Shown piece after piece: positions 36,617 to 49,609 of a DNA stretch of 64,000 nt. Position 1 is the stretch's first letter, and each line of letters starts with the position of its first letter. Under the pieces are notes generated by a model that worked only from the letters and a program-made list of their open reading frames with translations, searched no databases and was not told the DNA's origin. A program made the translations under genes and the position numbers. Origin of the DNA: Methylomonas sp. (lineage in GTDB: Bacteria; Pseudomonadota; Gammaproteobacteria; Methylococcales; Methylomonadaceae). The DNA lies in contig JALSLW010000080.1 in assembly GCA_026988155.1 (NCBI GenBank), positions 1 through 64,000 of the forward strand, in the 5' to 3' direction.

Positions 36617-36797
36617 AAGTTCTTGAACTGCCTACTTTTTTTATCCGTCTTCTGCGCTGTATAACTAGCTGTCTGGCCCATTACGCGTACAATTTATCTG
36701 TCTTGGCAATAGTTCTTGTATTACTCTGCCTGGTCACATCCATATATTGATGGCCGAATACCAATAAAAAGCCTGCACCAGCTGTCCAAGTTATTCT
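36617..36797. repeat. Diverged palindromic element, copy A
   Basis: The left end AAGTTCTTGAACTGCC and right end GCTGTCCAAGTTATTCT form an imperfect inverted repeat. Inside are TTTATCCGTCTTCTGCGCTG on the left and GGCCGAATACCAATAAAAAG on the right. It resembles the element at 45989 along its whole length and shares the CTTTTTAT-CGTCTT core with the element at 54749. It fills most of the gap between the phosphoesterase and sensor genes; no gene lies in 36573-36935. Confidence 0.7.
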
Positions 36798-36935
36798 GTG
36801 TGCGTTCCATTAATTTCTTATTCATAAATGAGAAATTGAACCCTATATAGAATAAAATAAATCTTGGCAGATTCTTCAGAGCTTCTTTTTGTTGCTTAAA
36901 AATCTAATTAATCAAGTTTTTAGCTATGTAAACAA

Positions 36936-39900
36936 ATGCTGACAAAATATAAGTATTTTGCTATTAATAGGCCATTGATTTTAGTTTGCTGTCTTGAAGG
37001 GGTTATGCCACTAACATTGTTTCTCAAACTTGGCGTATTGTTTTTTTGTTTATCCGGCACATCTTTTTCTGTTGAAAAAAGCAAAGATGTAAGTGAACTT
37101 GAAACAGTACGTCTGCAGTTAAAAGGTTTTCATACCTTTCAGTTTGCTGGCTATTATGCCGCTAAAGAGCAGGGTTTCTATGAAGAAGAAGGCCTAAATG
37201 TTCATATTCTTGAACGAAACCCAAAATTAAGTGTTGTCAACCAAGTTGTTTCCAATGAGGTTCAATATGGGGTTGAGGATATGGGCATCATCACTGAGTA
37301 TGCTAATGGGGCTCCCATTAGTGTTTTGGCTGCAATATTTCAGCGCAGCTCTGTTGTTTTTATCAGTAAACAGTCTTCAGGTGTTGACTCTCCGAAAGAT
37401 TTCATTGGCAAACGCATCATGATGAACTATGCAGAGGCTGATAATCTGGCACTGCGTATACTGCTGAGTGACAATGGATTATCTGAAGATGCATATACTC
37501 TCATCCCTCATTCATTTGGCTATCAGGCGCTTATTGATGATAAAACAGATGTTATTGCATCTCATTTAACAGACCAGTATTTTTTCTTTAAAAGAAATAA
37601 TTTAAAGATAAATGTTATTGATCCTCAAAACTATGGGGTTGATTTTTATGGCGATATTTTATTTACCAGTCGGTCTGAGCTAACTGACCATCCAATCCGT
37701 GCCGAATGTTTTAGACGAGCATCTTTAAAAGGCTGGCAATATGCCTTGGATCACCCGAAAGAAATTATTCGGCTTATCAGCTCAAAATATAATGCCAGCT
37801 CAAGTCTTGATCAGTTGCGTCTTGAGGCGAAGGTAATTCGAAATCAGATTATGCCAGATGCTATTCCTCTGGGGACGGTCGATGAAATACGTTTGCGAAA
37901 GGTATCTGATTTGATTGCAAAAGTAAAGTTTTCTAGATATTTAACAGATTCGGAGCTTCATGAGTTTATTTTTGATCAGCCTCGGCCCGGTAGCTTTTCG
38001 ATTAAAGACCAAAACTGGTTAAAGAAAAATCCAGTTATCCGTCTGGGCATAGATCAAAACTTTGCACCTTATGAATGGTTAAATAATGAAGGTGAATATA
38101 CAGGCATTACTATTGATTATATCAGGCTGCTGGAACAGCGATTAGGCGTTAAATTTGACTTTATTAAGGATAAAAAGTCTTGGCCTGAGCTATTGGATGC
38201 AGCCAAAAATAATGAGCTGGATATGTTATTTAGCCTTATAAAAACACCAAAGCGATCAGAATATTTAAATTTTACTTCACCTTATTTTATTAGCCCCGTC
38301 ACCATTATTAGCGGGCAGGCCCAAGGGTATATAGGATCTTTGAAACGGCTAAATGGAAAGCTGGTTGCCATTCAGAACAATCACTCTGCAGAAGAGCTGC
38401 TGGCTCTGCACTACCCTGAAATTTCCGTTATATTGACTGATAGTATAAAAGAGGCATTGCAGTTGGTGGCACAAGGCGAAGCACATGCTTATATTGGAGA
38501 TGCTATTTCTGCTGACTATATTATGCGGCAGGAAAATAGACATAACTTAATGTTTTCTGGCCAAACAGAATATCAAAGTAAATTTCGCATTGGCGTTGTA
38601 AAAAATAATCCAGAACTGTTTTCTGTGATGAAAAAAGCACTGGCAAGTATCAGTGATAAAGAAAGAAATGAAATATCACGTCGATGGCTAGAACGTAAAC
38701 CTGTTCAGGAAACAAGTTTTGATACTGCTTTTCAATTTATTGCAGTTGCATCCCCGGTATTTATTTTGTTTTGCTGCTGGGTTTTCTGGCTGCGTAAATC
38801 AAGATTGGCAATACGGAGAAATGAAGATTATTTAAAGGCAATTTTTGATGCTGAAATGGAAAGTGTTAAAGTCATTTCTTCTGAAGGAAAGCTGATGCAG
38901 ATTAATCCGGCAGGACTGGCGTTGCTGGATTATCAAGATAAGCCTTCAGAAATAATTGGACAAAAGTATCAGCAATGGGTTGTGCTTGAAGACCGTCTAG
39001 CTTATCTAAAAATGAATAAGCGTGTTCAGCAAGGTGAATCGGCAGAGCTAATTTACCAAATTGAAAATATAAATGGCCGCCGCTGGCTGGAAACACAGGC
39101 GGTTCCTTTAGTAGATCCAGAATCAGGTAAAACTTCAATTCTTGCTGTTTCAAGGGATATTACCGAGAAAAAAAATGCTGAAAAGCAAATTTGGAAACAT
39201 GCCAATTTTGATTCCTTGACGGATTTGCCGAATAGGAGAATGTTTCATGATCACCTGGTACAAGAAATAAAAGCTTCTCATAGAAACTCATTGTCATTAG
39301 CGCTGCTGTTTCTTGATCTCGATCATTTCAAGCAGATAAATGATGAATTGGGGCATCAAGTTGGTGATCTTCTATTGAAAGATGTAGCCGCCAGGGTTGT
39401 TTCCTGTGTCAGAGAATCTGATATTGTTTCTCGATTAAGCGGCGATGAATTTACGGTGATTTTATCTGAACTAGAACATAAAAAATCTGCGGAGCATATC
39501 GTTAATAAAATTCTTCATGCTCTTAAAAAGCCCTTTATGCTGGGTGATGAAAATGCTTATATATCCGTCAGCATAGGTATTGCATTTTATCCCGAAGATG
39601 CAGAAGACAGCCAAAAGCTAATTCAAAAGGCCGATATGGCAATGTATTCTGCCAAAGAGATGGGACGTAACCGGTTTAGCTATTTTACTCAATCTATGCA
39701 AGATGCCGCACTGTATAGGCTGCAGATGCTCAAAGACCTGCATGTAGCTCTTCGGGAAGACCAGTTTCAACTGCGATACCAGCCCATTGTTGAATTATCT
39801 ACAGGTAGAATACATAAGGTTGAGGCTCTGTTGAGCTGGAACCACCCAACACGGGGACAAGTCAATACCGAAGAGTTTATTCGGCTTGCTGAGGATTCTG

Positions 39901-40493
39901 GGCTTATAAAAAAAATTGGTGACTGGGTGTTTGAGGAAGCAATCAGAAAACTTAGCCTATGGCAGCAAACATATGATACTGATATTCAGCTCAGTATTAA
40001 TAAGTCACCTATCCAGTTTAATATGAAAAAAAGCCATTATGATTGGCTGCATCTATTAGATAAATATCATATAAATGGGGAGCAGATTGTAATTGAGATA
40101 ACTGAAAGCTTATTGCTGAACAGTACAAAAAATGTACTTGAACGATTAGAAAAGTATCGTGAAAGGGGGATTCAAATTGCCGTTGATGATTTTGGCACTG
40201 GGTATTCAGCACTGTCATATTTAAATAAATTTAATTTGGATTATTTAAAAATTGACTGTTCTTTTACAGAAAATATAATAACAGACGCTAGTGCTATGGC
40301 TTTAACCGAGGCCATTACAGTGATGGCTCATAAATTGGGGCTGAAAGTTATCGCAGAGGGCATAGAAACTGAGGAACAGCTTAAGGTTTTAAGAGCTGTG
40401 GGCTGTGAGTATGGACAAGGGTTTATATTTGATAAACCGCTGCTTGCTAAAGATTTTGAGCTAGTGCTAGAGAAAATGACCTGCAAAACTTAA
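36936..40493 (+). CDS. Dual-receptor GGDEF-EAL protein (NMT1-SBP3-PAS-GGDEF-EAL)
   Basis: An 1185-residue membrane signalling protein with two different periplasmic receptors. Order: signal/anchor, NMT1/THI5-like domain (about 55-340, with YYAAKEQGFYEEEGL), solute-binding family 3 domain (about 375-590, with VIRLGIDQNFAPYEW), membrane helix (about 598-620), PAS (about 635-750), GGDEF domain with SGDEF at 835-839, and EAL domain with EAL at 963-965. The first position of the GGDEF motif is Ser; such variants can still be active, so this is undecided. The EAL domain keeps DDFGTGYSA and EGIET, so it is a good phosphodiesterase candidate. A second in-frame ATG at 37005 follows AAGGGG closely and begins right before a signal-peptide-like stretch, so it may be the true start. 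Confidence 0.92.
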   Translation: MLTKYKYFAINRPLILVCCLEGVMPLTLFLKLGVLFFCLSGTSFSVEKSKDVSELETVRLQLKGFHTFQFAGYYAAKEQGFYEEEGLNVHILERNPKLSVVNQVVSNEVQYGVEDMGIITEYANGAPISVLAAIFQRSSVVFISKQSSGVDSPKDFIGKRIMMNYAEADNLALRILLSDNGLSEDAYTLIPHSFGYQALIDDKTDVIASHLTDQYFFFKRNNLKINVIDPQNYGVDFYGDILFTSRSELTDHPIRAECFRRASLKGWQYALDHPKEIIRLISSKYNASSSLDQLRLEAKVIRNQIMPDAIPLGTVDEIRLRKVSDLIAKVKFSRYLTDSELHEFIFDQPRPGSFSIKDQNWLKKNPVIRLGIDQNFAPYEWLNNEGEYTGITIDYIRLLEQRLGVKFDFIKDKKSWPELLDAAKNNELDMLFSLIKTPKRSEYLNFTSPYFISPVTIISGQAQGYIGSLKRLNGKLVAIQNNHSAEELLALHYPEISVILTDSIKEALQLVAQGEAHAYIGDAISADYIMRQENRHNLMFSGQTEYQSKFRIGVVKNNPELFSVMKKALASISDKERNEISRRWLERKPVQETSFDTAFQFIAVASPVFILFCCWVFWLRKSRLAIRRNEDYLKAIFDAEMESVKVISSEGKLMQINPAGLALLDYQDKPSEIIGQKYQQWVVLEDRLAYLKMNKRVQQGESAELIYQIENINGRRWLETQAVPLVDPESGKTSILAVSRDITEKKNAEKQIWKHANFDSLTDLPNRRMFHDHLVQEIKASHRNSLSLALLFLDLDHFKQINDELGHQVGDLLLKDVAARVVSCVRESDIVSRLSGDEFTVILSELEHKKSAEHIVNKILHALKKPFMLGDENAYISVSIGIAFYPEDAEDSQKLIQKADMAMYSAKEMGRNRFSYFTQSMQDAALYRLQMLKDLHVALREDQFQLRYQPIVELSTGRIHKVEALLSWNHPTRGQVNTEEFIRLAEDSGLIKKIGDWVFEEAIRKLSLWQQTYDTDIQLSINKSPIQFNMKKSHYDWLHLLDKYHINGEQIVIEITESLLLNSTKNVLERLEKYRERGIQIAVDDFGTGYSALSYLNKFNLDYLKIDCSFTENIITDASAMALTEAITVMAHKLGLKVIAEGIETEEQLKVLRAVGCEYGQGFIFDKPLLAKDFELVLEKMTCKT

Positions 40494-40769: not shown

Positions 40770-42419
40770 ATGATTAAACAAATTGCTCGCAAGGCTGTGC
40801 TGATTTATCCTGAATTTGATACCCAGGATACTTTCTGGAGTTATGCCACAAGTTTAAAAATGTACGCACAGGCCAGTGAGTTTGGCTTGCCAAAAAGATT
40901 GCTGCCACCTCTAGGGTTAATGGGTTTATTTAATCATCTTAAGCCCTATTACCAATCATTGTCTTTGGTTGATAAAAATATTGATCCTCGCCCCCTGAAA
41001 GAATTAATCAACGATGCTGACCATATTTTTATGGGTGGGATGCTGGCCCAGGAACAAAGCTTATTTAAGCTTGCTACAGAAGTAAAGCTGGCGGGCAAGT
41101 TATTGATCGTTGGCGGAACTGCCGTCACAACTCAATCGCCGTTAATGGGGTTAGCAGATCATTTAATAGAAAATGAAGCGGAAGGGGTGATTGATGAATT
41201 ATTGCAAGGCTTAAGTACAGGAAAGGCAAGAAAATATTATAAAGGACATTTTGTCTTATCCGAGAATTTTTTTCAGCCAGATTATGCCTCAATCAATATG
41301 CAAAATTATATGCATATGGCGGTACAGATTAGTCGCGGCTGTCCAGAGAACTGTGAATTCTGTGATATTCCTTCCCGGTTTGGTAAAGCCTTTCGAGTTA
41401 CTCCTTTTAAAAAAACGGCAGCTTCATTTCAACAAATGAAAGAACTGGGCTGGACAGGGCAGGTATTCGTTGTTGATGATAATTTTATTGCCAATCCTAG
41501 AAAAGCACTTGATGTGCTGAAAGGTCTATATAGAATAGGTGAGGATATTGGCTACCATCATCCCAAATATACAGAGTTAACTTTACGGTTGGCCGATGAT
41601 TCAGCCATTATGGCAGAATTGAGGCATTGGTTCCGCAAAGCTCATTTCATTAATGGTTTCTATGGAGTTGAGACACCGAATAGAGCTTCATTGCTAGAAA
41701 CAAATAAGCGTCAAAATTTGCGAGGTCAGCGAAGTTTAGTGGATAAATTACGTTTTATTTCTGAGCAGACTGGAGCGGGTGTAATGATGGGAATGATTTA
41801 CGGCTTTGACCATGATACTGATGACTCTGTGGAAGAGTTTATTGATTTTGTTAATGCCACTCATGCGCCTATTGTAATGGCTGGGCTATTAAACGCCTTG
41901 CCTTATACAGGTCTAATGGCAAGGCTAGATGCTGAGGGCCGTTCCATTCAGATGAGCAGTGGCAATAATTCAGATGGGGTTATTAACTTTATTCCCTTTC
42001 ATTTTTCAGTAAAACGGGCAGAACAGAATTATCTACGTATTTTGGAAGGTATTTACCATCCAAAGGCTTATTTTAACCGGGTACTAAGGCATCTGTCATT
42101 GATAGACCCAGATTTACAAAGCCATTATCGTTCAGGGAATAAAAACCTTAGTCTTTTAGCTAAAATTCTATCCCGGAAGCATGCTCTTGTTTATTGGCAA
42201 TATTTACCTAAAGTGATGGAAGTCGCTAAAAGCCGCTGCGGTTCTAATCAATCTAGGTATGGTGCAATACTGGCAGAATATTTTTCACTCTGCGGACAAT
42301 ATACACATTTTGTCGCTCAAATTAATGTGCGACGAAAACAGATACTTCTACGAGAATATGCTGAAAATCAAAAGTTTTCATGGAAGGAATTACAGGCCGC
42401 AGCAAGGAAGGTTGGGTGA
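40770..42419 (+). CDS. B12-binding radical SAM protein (DUF4070 family)
   Basis: A 549-residue enzyme. An N-terminal cobalamin-binding-like domain (about 1-150) opens with AVLIYPEF and DTFWSY, a motif shared with the hopanoid methylases HpnP/HpnR and relatives. The radical SAM core has Cys191, Cys195 and Cys198 (CPENCEFC, CxxxCxxC), then FVVDDNFIANPRKALDVL and TELTLRLADD. A DUF4070 C-terminal domain follows. Enzymes of this class usually methylate unreactive carbons or rearrange a carbon skeleton. Orthology to a hopanoid methylase is not assured. It heads a tightly coupled trio: the downstream gene starts inside its stop codon. GAGG at 40758-40761 is a plausible ribosome-binding site. Confidence 0.9.
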   Translation: MIKQIARKAVLIYPEFDTQDTFWSYATSLKMYAQASEFGLPKRLLPPLGLMGLFNHLKPYYQSLSLVDKNIDPRPLKELINDADHIFMGGMLAQEQSLFKLATEVKLAGKLLIVGGTAVTTQSPLMGLADHLIENEAEGVIDELLQGLSTGKARKYYKGHFVLSENFFQPDYASINMQNYMHMAVQISRGCPENCEFCDIPSRFGKAFRVTPFKKTAASFQQMKELGWTGQVFVVDDNFIANPRKALDVLKGLYRIGEDIGYHHPKYTELTLRLADDSAIMAELRHWFRKAHFINGFYGVETPNRASLLETNKRQNLRGQRSLVDKLRFISEQTGAGVMMGMIYGFDHDTDDSVEEFIDFVNATHAPIVMAGLLNALPYTGLMARLDAEGRSIQMSSGNNSDGVINFIPFHFSVKRAEQNYLRILEGIYHPKAYFNRVLRHLSLIDPDLQSHYRSGNKNLSLLAKILSRKHALVYWQYLPKVMEVAKSRCGSNQSRYGAILAEYFSLCGQYTHFVAQINVRRKQILLREYAENQKFSWKELQAAARKVG

Positions 42420-44170
42420 AATACTATATTGGCCTTTCTGTTACCTATCATGACCCCGCAATAGCTATTGTCGATGAAAAAGGCAAGGTGCTATTTGCCG
42501 AAGCTACAGAACGCTACATGCAAAATAAGCGGGCGTTGAACTGTGTTGCAGATCCGTTGCTCAGGGTGCAAGACTTATTGGCACAATATTGCCCATCTGC
42601 TGATGAGTTTATTATTGCGATCAATTGGAGAAGAAAGCGCCCATTGTATGAAAATATAATCTCAGCATTAGGCTGTTTAACAGCTACAGGACTGACCAGA
42701 ACAGGCATTAAACGGTTGCGTTCACCGCTTGAAAATTACCAGCTTCACCATATGATAGCGAGTCAGCGCAATAGTATTTCCAGTGCGGGGCTAAATTTGG
42801 CGCGTATTATTGCGGAATATTACCCCAACTGTACTGTCAGGCATGCCGATTATCAGCACCACTTAACCCATGCAGCAACTGCTTGTTACAGCAGTTCTTT
42901 TTCTGAAGCAGCCTGTGCTGTCATTGATTCTTTTGGTGAAAAAGGCTCAATGGCGTTCTATCATTTTAAAAATCAGCGGTTTGAGTGCCTTTATGAAACT
43001 AAAGGTACAGGAAGCCTAGGCTTTTATTATATGAAGATTACTGAACTATGTGGCTTTAACTGGCTAAAGGGAGAAGAGTGGAAAGTAATGGGCCTGGCTC
43101 CTTATGGCAAGCTTAATCCGGAGCTGTATGAGCTATTAAAATCTACTGTTACAGTGCAGGGGTTTGACTGTTTACACGATTCTAAAAACCTGTTTCTCAG
43201 TATAGACATGCTAGAGCGCTTTAAACGGCATGGTCTAAATTCTATCGAACAGGCTGCTGATTTAGCTTTTACCGGACAATATTTTTTTGCTGAATTAATG
43301 AGTAAGCTGCTACAGTATTTGCAGCAGGTAACTGGATGTAAAAATCTGGCTTTAGGCGGTGGCTGTGCATTAAATTCAGCCTTTAATGGGCAAATAAAAA
43401 TAAGGACGGATTTTGAACAGATTTTTATTCCCTCTGCACCTGCTGATGATGGTACTGCACTGGGGGCCGCTTGGCTGGCTTTTCAGCAGGCACAGCCTGC
43501 GCTGCCTTTAACTGATGACAATAAACTGTTATCTCCTTATCTAGGGTCTGAGATCAATAATGCGGAGGTAGAAAGACTGATTCAAAATAATCATTGTCTG
43601 GACATACAATATTTACCTGATAGTATTTGTGAGGTTACTGCAGAACTGCTTGCAAAAGGCCAGCTGGTAGGCTGGGTACAGGGTAGGGCAGAATATGGTC
43701 CAAGGGCATTGGGCAATCGCTCTATTCTGGCAGATCCTCGACAGGCGGTAACAAAGGATATAATTAATCAGAAAATTAAGTTTCGGGAAAGCTTTCGTCC
43801 TTTTGCTCCCTCGGTTTTACATGAGCATGCAGACAGTTTTTTTGAAAACTATCATGAATCTCCTTATATGGATAAAACCCTGAAACTGCGTGATTCCATG
43901 CAAGAACAGGTAGCGGCTGTCTGTCATATTGACGGAACAGCACGGTTGCAATCGGTTACCCAGGAGAGGAATGAACGTTTTTACAGTTTAATTAATCTTT
44001 TTTATCAGCGGACTCAGGTCCCTATGCTATTGAATACCAGCTTTAATGTGATGGGGAAACCATTGATTCATTCATTGGATGATGCCATTTCTGTTTTTTT
44101 AACTACAGGTCTGGATGTTTTGGCTATTAATGATTATTTGATTGCTAAGCCACAAAATGAAAAAGTATAA
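42416..44170 (+). CDS. Carbamoyltransferase, NodU/CmcH family
   Basis: A 584-residue O-carbamoyltransferase that activates carbamoyl phosphate with ATP and transfers it to a hydroxyl of a small molecule. The Kae1-like N-terminal domain has the HHLTHA motif (His148, His149, His152), CAVIDSFGEKGS, LALGGGCALNSAFNG and APADDGTALGAAW. The C-terminal domain has GRAEYGPRALGNRSILADPR and MLLNTSFNVMGKP. GTG 42416 is chosen as start because it overlaps the upstream stop (GTGA) and follows AAGGAAGG, and the product then opens KYYIGLSVTYHDPA. This family works in nodulation factor and antibiotic tailoring, so a modified secondary metabolite or lipid is expected. It overlaps the next gene by 14 bp. Confidence 0.93.
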   Translation: MKYYIGLSVTYHDPAIAIVDEKGKVLFAEATERYMQNKRALNCVADPLLRVQDLLAQYCPSADEFIIAINWRRKRPLYENIISALGCLTATGLTRTGIKRLRSPLENYQLHHMIASQRNSISSAGLNLARIIAEYYPNCTVRHADYQHHLTHAATACYSSSFSEAACAVIDSFGEKGSMAFYHFKNQRFECLYETKGTGSLGFYYMKITELCGFNWLKGEEWKVMGLAPYGKLNPELYELLKSTVTVQGFDCLHDSKNLFLSIDMLERFKRHGLNSIEQAADLAFTGQYFFAELMSKLLQYLQQVTGCKNLALGGGCALNSAFNGQIKIRTDFEQIFIPSAPADDGTALGAAWLAFQQAQPALPLTDDNKLLSPYLGSEINNAEVERLIQNNHCLDIQYLPDSICEVTAELLAKGQLVGWVQGRAEYGPRALGNRSILADPRQAVTKDIINQKIKFRESFRPFAPSVLHEHADSFFENYHESPYMDKTLKLRDSMQEQVAAVCHIDGTARLQSVTQERNERFYSLINLFYQRTQVPMLLNTSFNVMGKPLIHSLDDAISVFLTTGLDVLAINDYLIAKPQNEKV

Positions 44171-45995
44171 GCATGTTTTTGATCCTGAATTATCAATGCC
44201 GTTTATCCAACAATATAAGGACAGTTTTGATTGCAATTTAGATAGCCGATGGCTATTTTACCAACTAAACCAGCCATGTCATCAGCAGCACGCTATGCCT
44301 TCTGCATTTGGTTTTGTTAGAGAAGTATTAAAGGATGCAGAGCAAGTTTATTCTCCTTTGCTTATTAAAGACTATAGTTTAGATAAATTGGTTGCTTTGC
44401 AAACTTCAAGTATCGATGCTTTGTCTAAGTCTCGGCTAAACCAGAAAAATCAGTTTGAATGTATTAGGCAAACCGCTGCGATACAGTTAACTCAACCCCA
44501 TTGGCTGCAGAGCACCTTTCAAATTAACTGTAATCAGACTGAAATAGCTGTACAGCTGATGTCTATTTTTTTACAGCTGACACAGAAACAGAAAGGAAAT
44601 ACGGAACTAAAAAGGTTATACCACTCTCTGCTGCTTAATGAGGGGGTTAAAATGCCTGTACTACACAGTTATGACTATAGTCATAACTGTGGAATCATCT
44701 CTGAGATAATTCAATTTGCCACAATACAGCTTGCTTTAAGTCTATTTCCCCGTGTGCTATTGCCTGAAATTCTCGGTTTTACATTAGCTTATTGTCAGTT
44801 GCCGACATTGATTGAAATCTGCTTTCCAGATCATCAATTGCCCACCCGCTTCTTTAAGAAACGTCACCAAGTTCTAGTAAAACAATTAAAACCGATAACA
44901 AAATGTATTCAGGCGTTTCTGGATCTTTCACACCAGAAGCAACAGCAGGCTTTATGGCATAGGATACAGCACGGTTTTTGGCTTTATCAGCTGTTAATGC
45001 AGCGTTGCAGAGACAGGTTTAATCAGACATTGATACAGGAACCATCTTCCAGGCAAAATATTACCAGACTATTTGAGCAACAAAAGCAACAGGTAAACTA
45101 TGCAAAACTATCGACTAGAGAGCTTTATTACTATCTGATTAATGCGGATTTATTTCCAGATGTTTTGGCTGTTGCCAGCACTAAAGCTGACAAATGGTTG
45201 CGAATGAGTGCATTATTCAATCCACTTCCTTTTAAACATTATAGTCATCAGCAGCTTGATACCTACATAGATGATATTTATAAAGCAGAAGTGAGTGCCT
45301 ATCAGCCATTGCAAGGGAAGCCGCAAACTTCCAAAGCGGCCTATATATGGGGAATAGAGCAGATAGCACCAATGATATTAATTGATGGATGCTGGCTGCA
45401 AAATTCTTTGGCTTTGCAACATGTCAATTCTGAGATTTGTGATATTTTGTTCAGTATTTATGCAGATGAAATAGGGAACGGTCATTTGCAAAAGAATCAC
45501 TGCTACATATTTCAGCAATTGCTGAATAGCTTATCTATCAGGGTTCCGCCTATATACACTGCTGAATTTATAAAATACCCAGGATTTATTAATAGTGCTT
45601 TTGACTTGCCGGTCTATATGTTGGCTCTGTCCTATTTCCCGATAAAATTTTTGCCTGAATTATTAGGCTTGAATATGGCGATAGAATTAAGTGGTCTGGG
45701 GAAAGATTATATGCGACTGGTCGATGAATGGAATTATTGGGGGATTGACTCCACTATAGCAGACATTCATATTTCTATTGACAATTATGCTACAGGGCAT
45801 ACCTTACTGGCAAAAAAAGCGATTCAGCTTTACATGGATGATGTTTCAAAGCGAACAGGTGATGCTAAAATGCTGGATAGACACTGGCGGCGAATTTATA
45901 GAGGCTATATTTCATTACAGTTTGTTGGTAGAAGATTTAAGCTGAGTCTTCCAATTTATTATTTGATTAACACGTTAGGAGCGTGTACAAAATAA
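44157..45995 (+). CDS. Duplicated haem-oxygenase-like diiron protein
   Basis: A 612-residue protein with a C-terminal domain of the iron-containing redox enzyme / haem-oxygenase-like oxidase type. Candidate metal ligands: Glu438 (DEIGNG), His448 (KNHCY), His538, Asp542 and His548 (IHISIDNYATGH). The family includes UndA-type decarboxylases and N-oxygenases. The N-terminal half repeats the fold (LFPRVLLPEILGFTLA resembles YFPIKFLPELLGLNMA) but lacks these ligands, so it looks like an inactive copy. ATG 44157 is chosen; an upstream TTG is in frame. It overlaps the carbamoyltransferase gene by 14 bp, and a repeat element begins at its stop. Its substrate is unknown. Confidence 0.8.
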   Translation: MKKYKHVFDPELSMPFIQQYKDSFDCNLDSRWLFYQLNQPCHQQHAMPSAFGFVREVLKDAEQVYSPLLIKDYSLDKLVALQTSSIDALSKSRLNQKNQFECIRQTAAIQLTQPHWLQSTFQINCNQTEIAVQLMSIFLQLTQKQKGNTELKRLYHSLLLNEGVKMPVLHSYDYSHNCGIISEIIQFATIQLALSLFPRVLLPEILGFTLAYCQLPTLIEICFPDHQLPTRFFKKRHQVLVKQLKPITKCIQAFLDLSHQKQQQALWHRIQHGFWLYQLLMQRCRDRFNQTLIQEPSSRQNITRLFEQQKQQVNYAKLSTRELYYYLINADLFPDVLAVASTKADKWLRMSALFNPLPFKHYSHQQLDTYIDDIYKAEVSAYQPLQGKPQTSKAAYIWGIEQIAPMILIDGCWLQNSLALQHVNSEICDILFSIYADEIGNGHLQKNHCYIFQQLLNSLSIRVPPIYTAEFIKYPGFINSAFDLPVYMLALSYFPIKFLPELLGLNMAIELSGLGKDYMRLVDEWNYWGIDSTIADIHISIDNYATGHTLLAKKAIQLYMDDVSKRTGDAKMLDRHWRRIYRGYISLQFVGRRFKLSLPIYYLINTLGACTK

Positions 45996-46152
45996 TTTGA
46001 ACAGCAGACTTTCTTTTTATTCGTCTTACGCGCTGTATAACCACTTGCGCAGCTCACGACGAGGTAATCGCGCCTGTATTATTCTACCTACACTTATCCA
46101 TGTGTTAGCCGAATACGAATAAAAATCCCGCATCAGTTGTCCAAGCTATTTT
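45989..46152. repeat. Diverged palindromic element, copy C
   Basis: The left end (AAATAATTTGAACAGC) overlaps the stop of the preceding gene; the right end is GTTGTCCAAGCTATTTT. Inside: CTTTTTATTCGTCTTACGCG and, near the right end, CGAATACGAATAAAAATCCC. It matches copy A at 36617 in order and spacing. It separates the trio from the AlkB-like gene. Confidence 0.72.
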
Positions 46153-46218
46153 GGGTGCGTTTCTTAGACATAATTTATCGGGGTAAGTAAAATCGATCAT
46201 TTAAAATATTTATCCTGT

Positions 46219-47244
46219 TTGGCATTTCCTGCTTGTGTCGTATGGTTTTTATACACCGGCCCCCATGATGCAGTATCTGCACTTCTTTGGACTATCCCTC
46301 TTTGGGTGCTGGTTTTAATTGACTGGCTGAGCCCGAAAGTTAACCCTAATATGCAAAAAACTGTTGTTTCCAGTTGGTTTTACGATGCCATTTTATATGG
46401 TTTAACTCTCTTGCAATTTATAATCATAAGCTTGCTGCTTATTTACGCAAGCCAACTGCAATGGGGAGACATACCTGAAATTGCGACTTCTTTGGTCAAC
46501 CTTGTTGTCATGAGGATTTTAGTTGGAACGACTTCCGGTAGTTCGGCGATTATTGTAGCGCATGAATTAATACATAGAACTAAAATCCATCAGCGCATTT
46601 TAGGTAGATTATTGCTATATACCGTATGCTATGAACATTTTGTTATCGCCCATTTATATGGCCATCATCATAATGTGGCAACTCTTGAGGATATAGCGAC
46701 AGCTCGGCTAGGGGAAAGTTTTGAAACATATTGGAAAAGAGTAACTATCGGGCATTTCAAATATGCCTGGAACTTCGAAAGGAATCGCCTCGGATTAACT
46801 CAGGCACCTGCGTTTCATTATAAAATGCTCGCAAATTCAGTTTTGCAAGGCGTGGCAGTTGAAATGGCAATACTTATATTGATATTTATTGTATTTGGCT
46901 GGGCTGCAGTTTTTATTTTTATATACCAGGCATTTTCAGCTGTCCGCTTGCTGGAAACAATCAATTATTATCAGCACTGGGGATTGGAGCAAGGACGGTC
47001 GGAAAATATTTTAGCATGGGTAAACCGCTCTATGGTGACTGAATATGCATTATTTGGATTGTCTAACCATATAGAACATCATAACAATGCTCGGACTTTT
47101 TTTTACCAAACTCCTTTTTCAAACGAAGGCCCAGATATGCCTTATGGATATTTTGTAACCAATCTATGGGTAAAGCTAAATAATGCGTCATATCGAAGAG
47201 TATCAGCAGAAAAGATAAAGGAATTTTATAGGAACCTAGCTTAG
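46219..47244 (+). CDS. AlkB-family membrane diiron hydroxylase
   Basis: A 341-residue integral-membrane nonhaem diiron enzyme of the alkane monooxygenase/desaturase superfamily. The histidine boxes are HELIH at 115-119, EHFVIAHLYGHHHNVAT at about 139-155, NYYQHWGL and NHIEHHNNA, in the same order as AlkB. The second box continues LEDIATARLGESF, very close to AlkB's pattern. Five or six membrane helices are present. It would insert oxygen into a hydrocarbon or lipid chain. The start is uncertain: TTG 46219 is used, but the in-frame upstream sequence (SKIDHLKYLSC) looks coding and begins at a GTA codon at 46183. Rubredoxin, a common AlkB partner, is at 31044. Confidence 0.87.
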   Translation: MAFPACVVWFLYTGPHDAVSALLWTIPLWVLVLIDWLSPKVNPNMQKTVVSSWFYDAILYGLTLLQFIIISLLLIYASQLQWGDIPEIATSLVNLVVMRILVGTTSGSSAIIVAHELIHRTKIHQRILGRLLLYTVCYEHFVIAHLYGHHHNVATLEDIATARLGESFETYWKRVTIGHFKYAWNFERNRLGLTQAPAFHYKMLANSVLQGVAVEMAILILIFIVFGWAAVFIFIYQAFSAVRLLETINYYQHWGLEQGRSENILAWVNRSMVTEYALFGLSNHIEHHNNARTFFYQTPFSNEGPDMPYGYFVTNLWVKLNNASYRRVSAEKIKEFYRNLA

Positions 47245-48754: not shown

Positions 48755-49609
48755 TTATGAATGGCCTATCATTTCGCCTAATTGAACTTTCTTTCCTGCT
48801 GTAAATTCAGATTCCCACTTAACCTTGTCTTTCCCAAACAATACTATAATGGTCGACCCCATATTAAACCGTCCCATTTCTTCGCCTTTTTCTATAACAG
48901 GTGCATTATCCTGATATTGCCATGAGCGTACTGATTCAATAGATGGCGGCGTAACTACGCCGTGCCAAGTTGTTTCAATACTGGAAACAAAAATAGCACC
49001 GACCAGAATTAAGGCCATTGGCCCCAATTCTGTATCAAACAGGCAGGCAACTCGTTCATTTCTGGCAAAAAGGCCAGGTACCGAGTTTACAGTGGCACCG
49101 TTAACGCTAAATAGTCGGCCAGGAATATGAATCATTTCGGTTAAAGTGCCTTTAATCGGCATATGTAAACGGTGATAATCTTTTGGCGATAGATAAATAG
49201 TCGTAAATGATCCATTTTCGAAAGGTTTAGCCGTTTCCGCATTGCCACCTAGCAAGTCAACTGCAGAAAATGATTTGCCTTTCGCCTGAAAAATTTCTCC
49301 CTGCTCAATTAACCCTGCCTGACTGACTGCTCCATCAGCAGGGCAAGCGATAGCATTGGGAGAGGAGGTGATAGGTCTTGCCCCAGCTTTTAATTCACGG
49401 GTAAAAAAATGATTAAAGCTGGCAAAGTTATTAATGTCCTGTTCTTTGGCTTCAGACATATTGACGCCATAGATTCTTATAATTTGACTGATCATCAGAT
49501 TTTTCCAGACCTTAATTTTGGAATGGGTAAATTTTGACATTACTTTTGAAAGAAAATGGTGGGGTAAAATGTATTGTGGCAGTGTTGTTAATGCTTCTTT
49601 AAATGTCAT
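48755..49609 (-). CDS. psd: Phosphatidylserine decarboxylase proenzyme
   Basis: A 284-residue membrane-associated enzyme that makes phosphatidylethanolamine. The self-cleavage site is Gly251-Ser252-Thr253 (FNMGSTIIVLF), where the serine becomes the pyruvoyl cofactor. The catalytic residues of the fold are in ACPADGAVSQ (Asp), DYHRLHMPIKG (His) and ETTWHGVVTP. The length is typical of the E. coli-type enzyme. Starting at ATG 49609 gives the expected N-terminus (ALTTLPQYILPHHFLSKVM). The upstream 368 bp (49610-49977) is AT-rich, with a 7-bp-stem hairpin (GGCTTGG/CCAAGCC, 49781-49813) and no other gene recognised. Confidence 0.96.
   Translation of the reverse strand: MTFKEALTTLPQYILPHHFLSKVMSKFTHSKIKVWKNLMISQIIRIYGVNMSEAKEQDINNFASFNHFFTRELKAGARPITSSPNAIACPADGAVSQAGLIEQGEIFQAKGKSFSAVDLLGGNAETAKPFENGSFTTIYLSPKDYHRLHMPIKGTLTEMIHIPGRLFSVNGATVNSVPGLFARNERVACLFDTELGPMALILVGAIFVSSIETTWHGVVTPPSIESVRSWQYQDNAPVIEKGEEMGRFNMGSTIIVLFGKDKVKWESEFTAGKKVQLGEMIGHS

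Follow-up and report, generated by a model that had tools for sequence, protein, structure and literature searches.

A carbamoyltransferase, a two-domain diiron protein and a membrane hydroxylase form a conserved gene cassette in Methylococcales

Genes at the locus

The window analysed here, a stretch of 64,000 nucleotides (positions 1 to 64,000 of the forward strand of contig JALSLW010000080.1) from Methylomonas sp. (GenBank assembly GCA_026988155.1; source genome of 3.4 Mb in 107 contigs), carries genes for a radical SAM protein (rSAM), a carbamoyltransferase (CT), a haem-oxygenase-like diiron protein (DiFe) and an AlkB-like membrane hydroxylase (Alk) (Table 1). These genes belong to a cassette that is almost certainly a real conserved set in Methylococcales, which we interpret, with a probability of about 0.6, as a unit tailoring a small molecule or lipid. 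The original prediction, made from the letters of the window, had described three overlapping genes (rSAM, CT and DiFe), and both overlaps were found in the sequence. The rSAM stop codon (TGA) and the CT start share GTGA at 42416–42419, so that CT runs from 42416 to 44170, while the longer CT open reading frame (ORF) listed for the window arises from an in-frame ATG at 42380. The DiFe ATG at 44157 falls 14 bp within CT; the mechanical DiFe ORF begins at a TTG at 44142, from which all DiFe residue numbers given here are counted. Pfam matches above cut-off were obtained for DUF4070 and Radical_SAM in rSAM, for both carbamoyltransferase domains in CT and for Haem_oxygenas_2 in DiFe, in agreement with the CT and diiron identities first proposed. 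The spacer between DiFe and Alk is ~200 bp in the window versus 10 bp in the related genome G206, and an ATC at 46192 aligns with the Alk ATG of G206, the earliest standard start in the window being a TTG at 46219. A sequence 68% similar to the repeat-bounded stretch within this spacer lies at 36623–36806, and contig C55 has a shorter match.

Table 1 Features of the cassette in the window, with the basis of each assignment.
Feature	Position	Strand	Basis or remark
rSAM, accessory DUF4070 protein related to B12-type radical SAM enzymes	40770–42419	+	549 aa; Pfam/NCBIfam, CxxxCxxC
CT, CmcH/NodU-family carbamoyltransferase, start GTG	42416–44170	+	Pfam, conserved motifs
DiFe, two-domain haem-oxygenase-like diiron protein	44157–45995	+	Pfam, structure model
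N-terminal haem-oxygenase-like half of DiFe, ligands not conserved	44361–45035	+	Model residues ~74–298
Site where window DiFe and G206 lack ~105 residues (GHH...GPMFGVF module) present in relatives	45075–45095	+	
C-terminal catalytic diiron half of DiFe	45105–45992	+	Six ligands invariant in 40/40 sequences
112-bp stretch with 14-nt inverted repeat ends (93% complementary)	46014–46125	.	Inside DiFe–Alk spacer
Alk, AlkB-like membrane diiron hydroxylase, start uncertain	46192/46219–47244	+	Pfam, conserved histidines

Distribution and gene order in Methylococcales

Presence of the four genes was scored in a sample of 251 Methylococcales genomes (thresholds: CT, E ≤ 1e-130; Alk, E ≤ 1e-40; rSAM, E ≤ 1e-60), giving counts of 91 for DiFe, 86 for CT, 89 for Alk and 22 for rSAM. 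DiFe occurred with CT in 83 genomes and with Alk in 85, and all three were present in 79, with Fisher p values for the three pairs of 9e-53, 4e-54 and 3e-52; a chance neighbourhood was rejected on this co-occurrence. Physical linkage was frequent, with DiFe on the same contig as CT in 78 of 83 genomes and as Alk in 77 of 85. At the set thresholds, CT was missing from 8 DiFe genomes and Alk from 6, and DiFe was absent from 3 CT genomes and 4 Alk genomes, although these thresholds miss some true members, as in G246, which was scored as CT-less though pieces of CT sit at two contig ends. The matches to rSAM fall almost entirely in DiFe genomes (21 of 22, p = 1.7e-9, the one outside them covering 123 residues), and 18 genomes with CT, DiFe and Alk carry it while 61 do not. 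The core of the cassette is therefore CT, DiFe and Alk, with rSAM as a lineage-specific addition. The view of the locus as one functional unit is upheld by co-occurrence far above chance but was incomplete, since Alk had been overlooked. Likewise, the trio of rSAM, CT and DiFe is more than a set of chance neighbours, but the conserved trio is CT, DiFe and Alk, and rSAM is found in just 21 of 91 DiFe genomes; the neighbourhood comparison that had been proposed as a check returned the full order rSAM-CT-DiFe in 11 of the 251 genomes, against 79 with CT, DiFe and Alk together.

Gene order was compared in 39 loci fetched around the better DiFe matches, representing 38 genomes (G048 twice), with L005 (a 3.4-kb contig) and L071 (Acinetobacter) excluded here and from the 80-locus counts below. 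CT was present in 35 of these loci, Alk in 37 and rSAM in 9. Within the window's family CT, DiFe and Alk all lie on one strand, and in all eight fetched loci of other families Alk lies on the opposite strand. Among the 21 genomes whose rSAM is substantial, 11 (window included) have the full order rSAM-CT-DiFe, with the rSAM of G156 interrupted near its start (L059:12567–15772) by a 456-aa ORF, a putative transposase. Three sister genomes (G118, G138 and G160) have rSAM beside CT on one contig and DiFe with Alk on another, both pairs being near contig ends in G138; the retention of all four genes despite the split operon argues for joint action. Elsewhere, rSAM and CT are separated by a 1.6–1.7 kb gap with small ORFs (G153, G171, G191 and G246), or rSAM lies on another contig (G174), ~9 kb from CT (G211) or at a contig end (G250).

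Two further observations concern individual lineages. A protein composed of numerous short repeats of the S-G-V-x-K-Y-L type adjoins the DiFe-Alk half operon in three genomes of the same genus (L036:481–2022, L037 and L039), and the one member tested gave no Pfam match above cut-off. In the Bathymodiolus platifrons symbiont (L099 and L169) the frames of both DiFe and CT are disrupted or cut short, such that the cassette seems to be decaying there.

Enzyme families and their nearest relatives

The structure model of DiFe (predicted local distance difference test (pLDDT) 91.9, from a 40-row alignment) comprises two all-helical halves. The protein belongs to the haem-oxygenase-like diiron oxidases/oxygenases (HDO), as indicated by a Haem_oxygenas_2 (PF14518) match of 44.2 bits (cut-off 28.9), a haem-oxygenase-like fold (Z up to 22.7) and six ligands in the C-terminal half (E443, H453, E506, H543, D547 and H553) that are invariant in 40 of 40 sequences. 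The nearest solved structures of the C-terminal half are N-oxygenases, which would place it with the N-oxygenase subclass: RohS (Z 22.7), HrmI (22.2) and SznF (21.3), the range including FlcD being 18–23, share both its fold and its six-ligand set. A Pseudomonas structure titled putative oxoacyl-ACP synthase (3bjd) scores 18.5. Lower scores were obtained for CADD (15.7), UndA and BesC (14.2) and PolF (11.8). From the model, N-oxygenation by DiFe is a tentative assignment, falling slightly short of an even chance. A fatty-acid route, in which DiFe would act like UndA or BesC by C–C cleavage, Alk would hydroxylate the chain and CT would cap the alcohol, draws on the fold shared with UndA and BesC (Z 14.2) and on the fact that AlkB acts on alkanes. 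It appears improbable, because the N-oxygenases fit better (Z 18–23) and because SznF shares the E-x9-H spacing. An excerpt of PMC11705231 gives the SznF ligands as E215, H225, E281, H311, D315 and H318, with E215–H225 and H311–D315 spacings equal to those of E443–H453 and H543–D547 in DiFe. The diiron half is thus closer to N-oxygenases than to the lipid-cleaving UndA; the lipid or hopanoid product originally envisaged is a possibility.

DiFe differs from the HDO N-oxygenases in being fused to a degenerate haem-oxygenase-like half, usually with a module of ~105 residues, and in being paired with CT. The N-terminal half matches TenA/PqqC-type chains, and its ligand-equivalent positions (assigned by simple offset) are not conserved except E209 (34/40), so that on the model this half is probably a scaffold. 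The linker between the halves measures 126–155 residues in 20 of the 22 rows compared, the longer form containing the GHH...GPMFGVF pattern, versus 26 residues in the window protein and G206; the window loop 301–315 has low pLDDT. The DiFe of G206 is 68% identical to that of the window and has no stops, which suggests a short form that is being maintained and is not in decay. No Pfam match to a cupin domain was found in window DiFe or L080.

Membership of CT in the CmcH/NodU family is supported by carbamoyltransferase domains at both termini, by the conserved motifs HHxxHA and GPRxLGxRS, which are invariant in 12 of 12 sequences, and by a match to the solved novobiocin CT (E 1e-76). Both Pfam domains and the motifs are common to GdmN, TobZ and the novobiocin CT; the window protein stands apart from such enzymes in that CT distances go in parallel with DiFe distances and in that the NodU NCBIfam equivalog cut-off is not reached (165.8 versus 1000 bits). 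Alk matches FA_desaturase in Pfam (76.3 bits, cut-off 29.7) and the solved AlkB 8f6t (E 5e-31). Ten of its histidines are conserved without exception across 12 aligned relatives, in positions resembling those of the AlkB histidine boxes. While it has the conserved histidines in common with AlkB alkane 1-monooxygenase, it is shorter (~350 aa, versus 399–471 in solved AlkB chains), has no NCBIfam match and, unlike that enzyme, is accompanied by DiFe in 85 of the 89 genomes of the order that carry it.

The CxxxCxxC motif reported for rSAM is intact (C191, C195 and C198) and invariant in 12 of 12 aligned homologues. Its description as a B12-type enzyme receives only indirect support, from Pfam B12-binding matches in 3 of 12 homologues, although the window protein itself gave no such match; its modelled N-terminus has alternating strands and helices in a poor model (pLDDT 52). 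The suggestion of a hopanoid methylase-like enzyme is weak, and identity with a hopanoid methylase was rejected, as the curated cut-offs were missed by a wide margin (HpnR, 26.2 versus 650 bits; HpnJ, 22 versus 577 bits). The best NCBIfam models were all far below cut-off (MJ_1487 type, 49 bits; PhpK, 43; ladderane type, 40), and the sequence matches to solved structures were 6fd2 (5e-9, the best), 9ccb (3e-8), RimO (0.0019), a MiaB-type enzyme (0.0075), CysS (0.036) and TokK (0.076). We take 6fd2 to be AprD4, whose family is named a diol-dehydratase by NCBIfam. As the profile also matches RimO and the MiaB-type enzyme, family placement is loose, and with matches this weak and mixed methylation is a guess; dehydration as in AprD4 would be equally open. 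Thus rSAM has CxxxCxxC, DUF4070 (Pfam) and weak profile matches in common with AprD4, TokK, CysS, HpnR and PhpK, and is distinguished from them by reaching no curated family cut-off and by a B12 domain that was not detected in the window protein.

The pair outside the order and the proposed function

A scan of named genomes, in which the loci of the best 80 of 197 DiFe relatives were kept and outside-order status was taken from record titles, showed that the partnership of CT and DiFe extends far outside the order. CT was present in 69 of these 80 loci and in 29 of the 34 taken as outside, including Streptomyces, Pseudomonas and Nostoc. By comparison, Alk was found in 1 of the 34, L127, from a metagenome-assembled genome labelled Methyloversatilis, a label that may be wrong because the locus resembles Methylocaldum L124. 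Pairwise distances of CT and DiFe are strongly correlated (r = 0.95 for 27 outside loci; r = 0.89 for 67 sequences, the window and those from 66 of the 80 loci; 0 of 2000 permutations in both cases), which common descent along the species tree would also produce to some extent. Outside the order, the pair is accompanied by an SGNH/GDSL-type protein in 14 clustered loci (Pfam match of the one tested member below cut-off), and by LysE exporter genes between DiFe and CT in five loci; Nostoc and one Pseudomonas have a second CT and an ATP-grasp ligase beside it. On Agrobacterium vitis plasmid pRvVAR031a (L070), CT and the diiron gene occur with a 2,4-diaminobutyrate transaminase, a SidA-type monooxygenase, a ketosynthase III and a condensation-domain protein, and this locus is likely a natural-product cluster. 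In this and similar CT-DiFe-SGNH loci CT adjoins the long diiron protein as it does in the window; they differ in that annotation and script matches revealed no Alk or this rSAM and in having neighbours of amino-acid or assembly-line type.

These neighbourhoods raise the question of whether the cassette makes a secreted metallophore or signal with an N-oxygenated, carbamoylated warhead. Consistent with this, the Methylocaldum L124 cassette is near a TonB receptor, a P450 and a luciferase-like monooxygenase, the related L127 also has an AMP-binding enzyme, an ABC ATPase and an FtsX/MacB permease, and both the five LysE-type loci and the SidA-type monooxygenase and transaminase of A. vitis can be counted in its favour. 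We nevertheless regard it as unlikely, because across the 39 order loci only CT, DiFe, Alk, rSAM and a CDP-alcohol phosphatidyltransferase recur, while other flanks vary.

Under our preferred interpretation of a tailoring unit, Alk would hydroxylate an unactivated carbon of a hydrophobic chain, and the C-terminal half of DiFe would carry out an oxidation for which nitrogen is the most likely site, by analogy with its closest structural relatives. CT would use carbamoyl phosphate to carbamoylate a hydroxyl, possibly an N-hydroxyl, and in some lineages rSAM may methylate or otherwise edit an sp3 carbon, the predicted product being a carbamoylated, N- or C-oxygenated amphiphile. A membrane hydroxylase and a neighbouring CDP-alcohol phosphatidyltransferase hint at a lipid, and a membrane lipid as the substrate is possible, if somewhat doubtful. 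The phosphatidyltransferase adjoins the cassette in 6 of 39 loci, and the window genome has one elsewhere; it was rejected as a core member because it is not enriched among DiFe carriers. A broader proposal is that CT and the split-domain diiron enzyme of N-oxygenase type make up a phylum-spanning module installing an undescribed group of N-oxy-carbamoyl type, joined in methanotrophs to Alk (and in some to a B12-type rSAM) in decorating a membrane amphiphile; in this full form we consider it speculative, and the odds are clearly against it.

A hopanoid-specific route would have CT carbamoylate aminobacteriohopanepolyols and rSAM or another enzyme methylate them, yielding methylcarbamate-aminobacteriohopanepolyols, an attractive idea where marine methanotrophs are concerned. 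Such compounds have been tentatively identified in Methylomarinum, Methylomarinovum and other type I methanotrophs, according to excerpts of PMC5100885 and PMC11844350, and an excerpt of PMC12583986 reports carbamoyl-bacteriohopanepolyols in Alphaproteobacteria, naming no gene. The window genome encodes a squalene-hopene cyclase (886 bits, cut-off 431), and the CDP-alcohol phosphatidyltransferase overlaps Alk by 4 bp in L035 and L040. However, known CTs of the CmcH/NodU family transfer H2N-CO to oxygen, unlike the reported carbamate, which is a methyl ester on nitrogen. In addition, no link of the cassette to hopanoid genes emerged, the HpnR and HpnJ models fail by far, and the pair occurs in Streptomyces and Acinetobacter loci and elsewhere outside the order beside ligases or amino-acid genes, making this route very unlikely.

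Several observations weigh against the preferred interpretation. The Fisher values and the distance correlation are inflated by shared ancestry. CT belongs to a broad family whose profile matches 50 of 299 phylum genomes, and among four phylum loci outside the order chosen by CT only G352 has a DiFe relative nearby (4–6 kb away); no diiron or AlkB-like match was found within 20 kb in G417 (the best phylum CT) or G481, nor in the 8-kb contig of G494. Conversely, on Sinorhizobium and Streptomyces plasmids the long diiron protein adjoins acyl-CoA dehydrogenases with no CT listed. The CDP-alcohol phosphatidyltransferase family is found in 79 genomes, 24 of which carry DiFe, compared with 91 of 251 overall (hand count). 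Neighbours of the outside-order pair include SGNH hydrolases, LysE exporters, ligases and a condensation domain, a setting that speaks for compounds derived from amino acids more than for lipids. As to the diiron half, Foldseek matches are weak (best E 8e-4, template modelling score by query 0.28), the match of the sequence profile to RohS is marginal and 32 residues long (0.036 and 0.38), and the D547–H553 spacing is 6 residues versus 3 in SznF (excerpt of PMC11705231). Finally, the window Alk gene no longer has the ATG seen in its nearest relative, and the spacer sets it apart.

In keeping with the original prediction, which named no described counterpart, searches of 5.39 million open papers, with subscription journals and cluster databases outside their scope, gave no description of such a cluster among the titles and abstracts listed; an excerpt of PMC11072679 has an ornithine carbamoyltransferase and a haem oxygenase among its highlighted genes. 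All the enzyme families are known, and it is the combination and the CT-DiFe module that seem undescribed. The core is present in 79 of 251 order genomes, including symbionts of a deep-sea snail and of sponges, and actinomycetes, cyanobacteria and proteobacteria also have the CT-diiron pair. The Texas strain of Methylococcus capsulatus is another carrier of the cassette. That a set so widely conserved has no known product points to a gap in methanotroph chemistry, and following it up could lead, by testable steps, to a new functional group or to a lipid biomarker specific to its source.

A recent foreign island and a mobile or viral origin were both rejected for the window cassette. There is no base-composition break of the kind expected of a foreign island; a pattern scan of viral contigs confirmed no DiFe relative; and among the matches listed (20 of 30 plasmid records) coverage of DiFe was at most 49%. 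The upstream neighbour, ~280 bp from the operon, is a large protein (36936–40493) that combines GGDEF/EAL with NMT1 and family-3 solute-binding domains, and not far downstream, on the minus strand, is a putative phosphatidylserine decarboxylase-like ORF (48755–49609).

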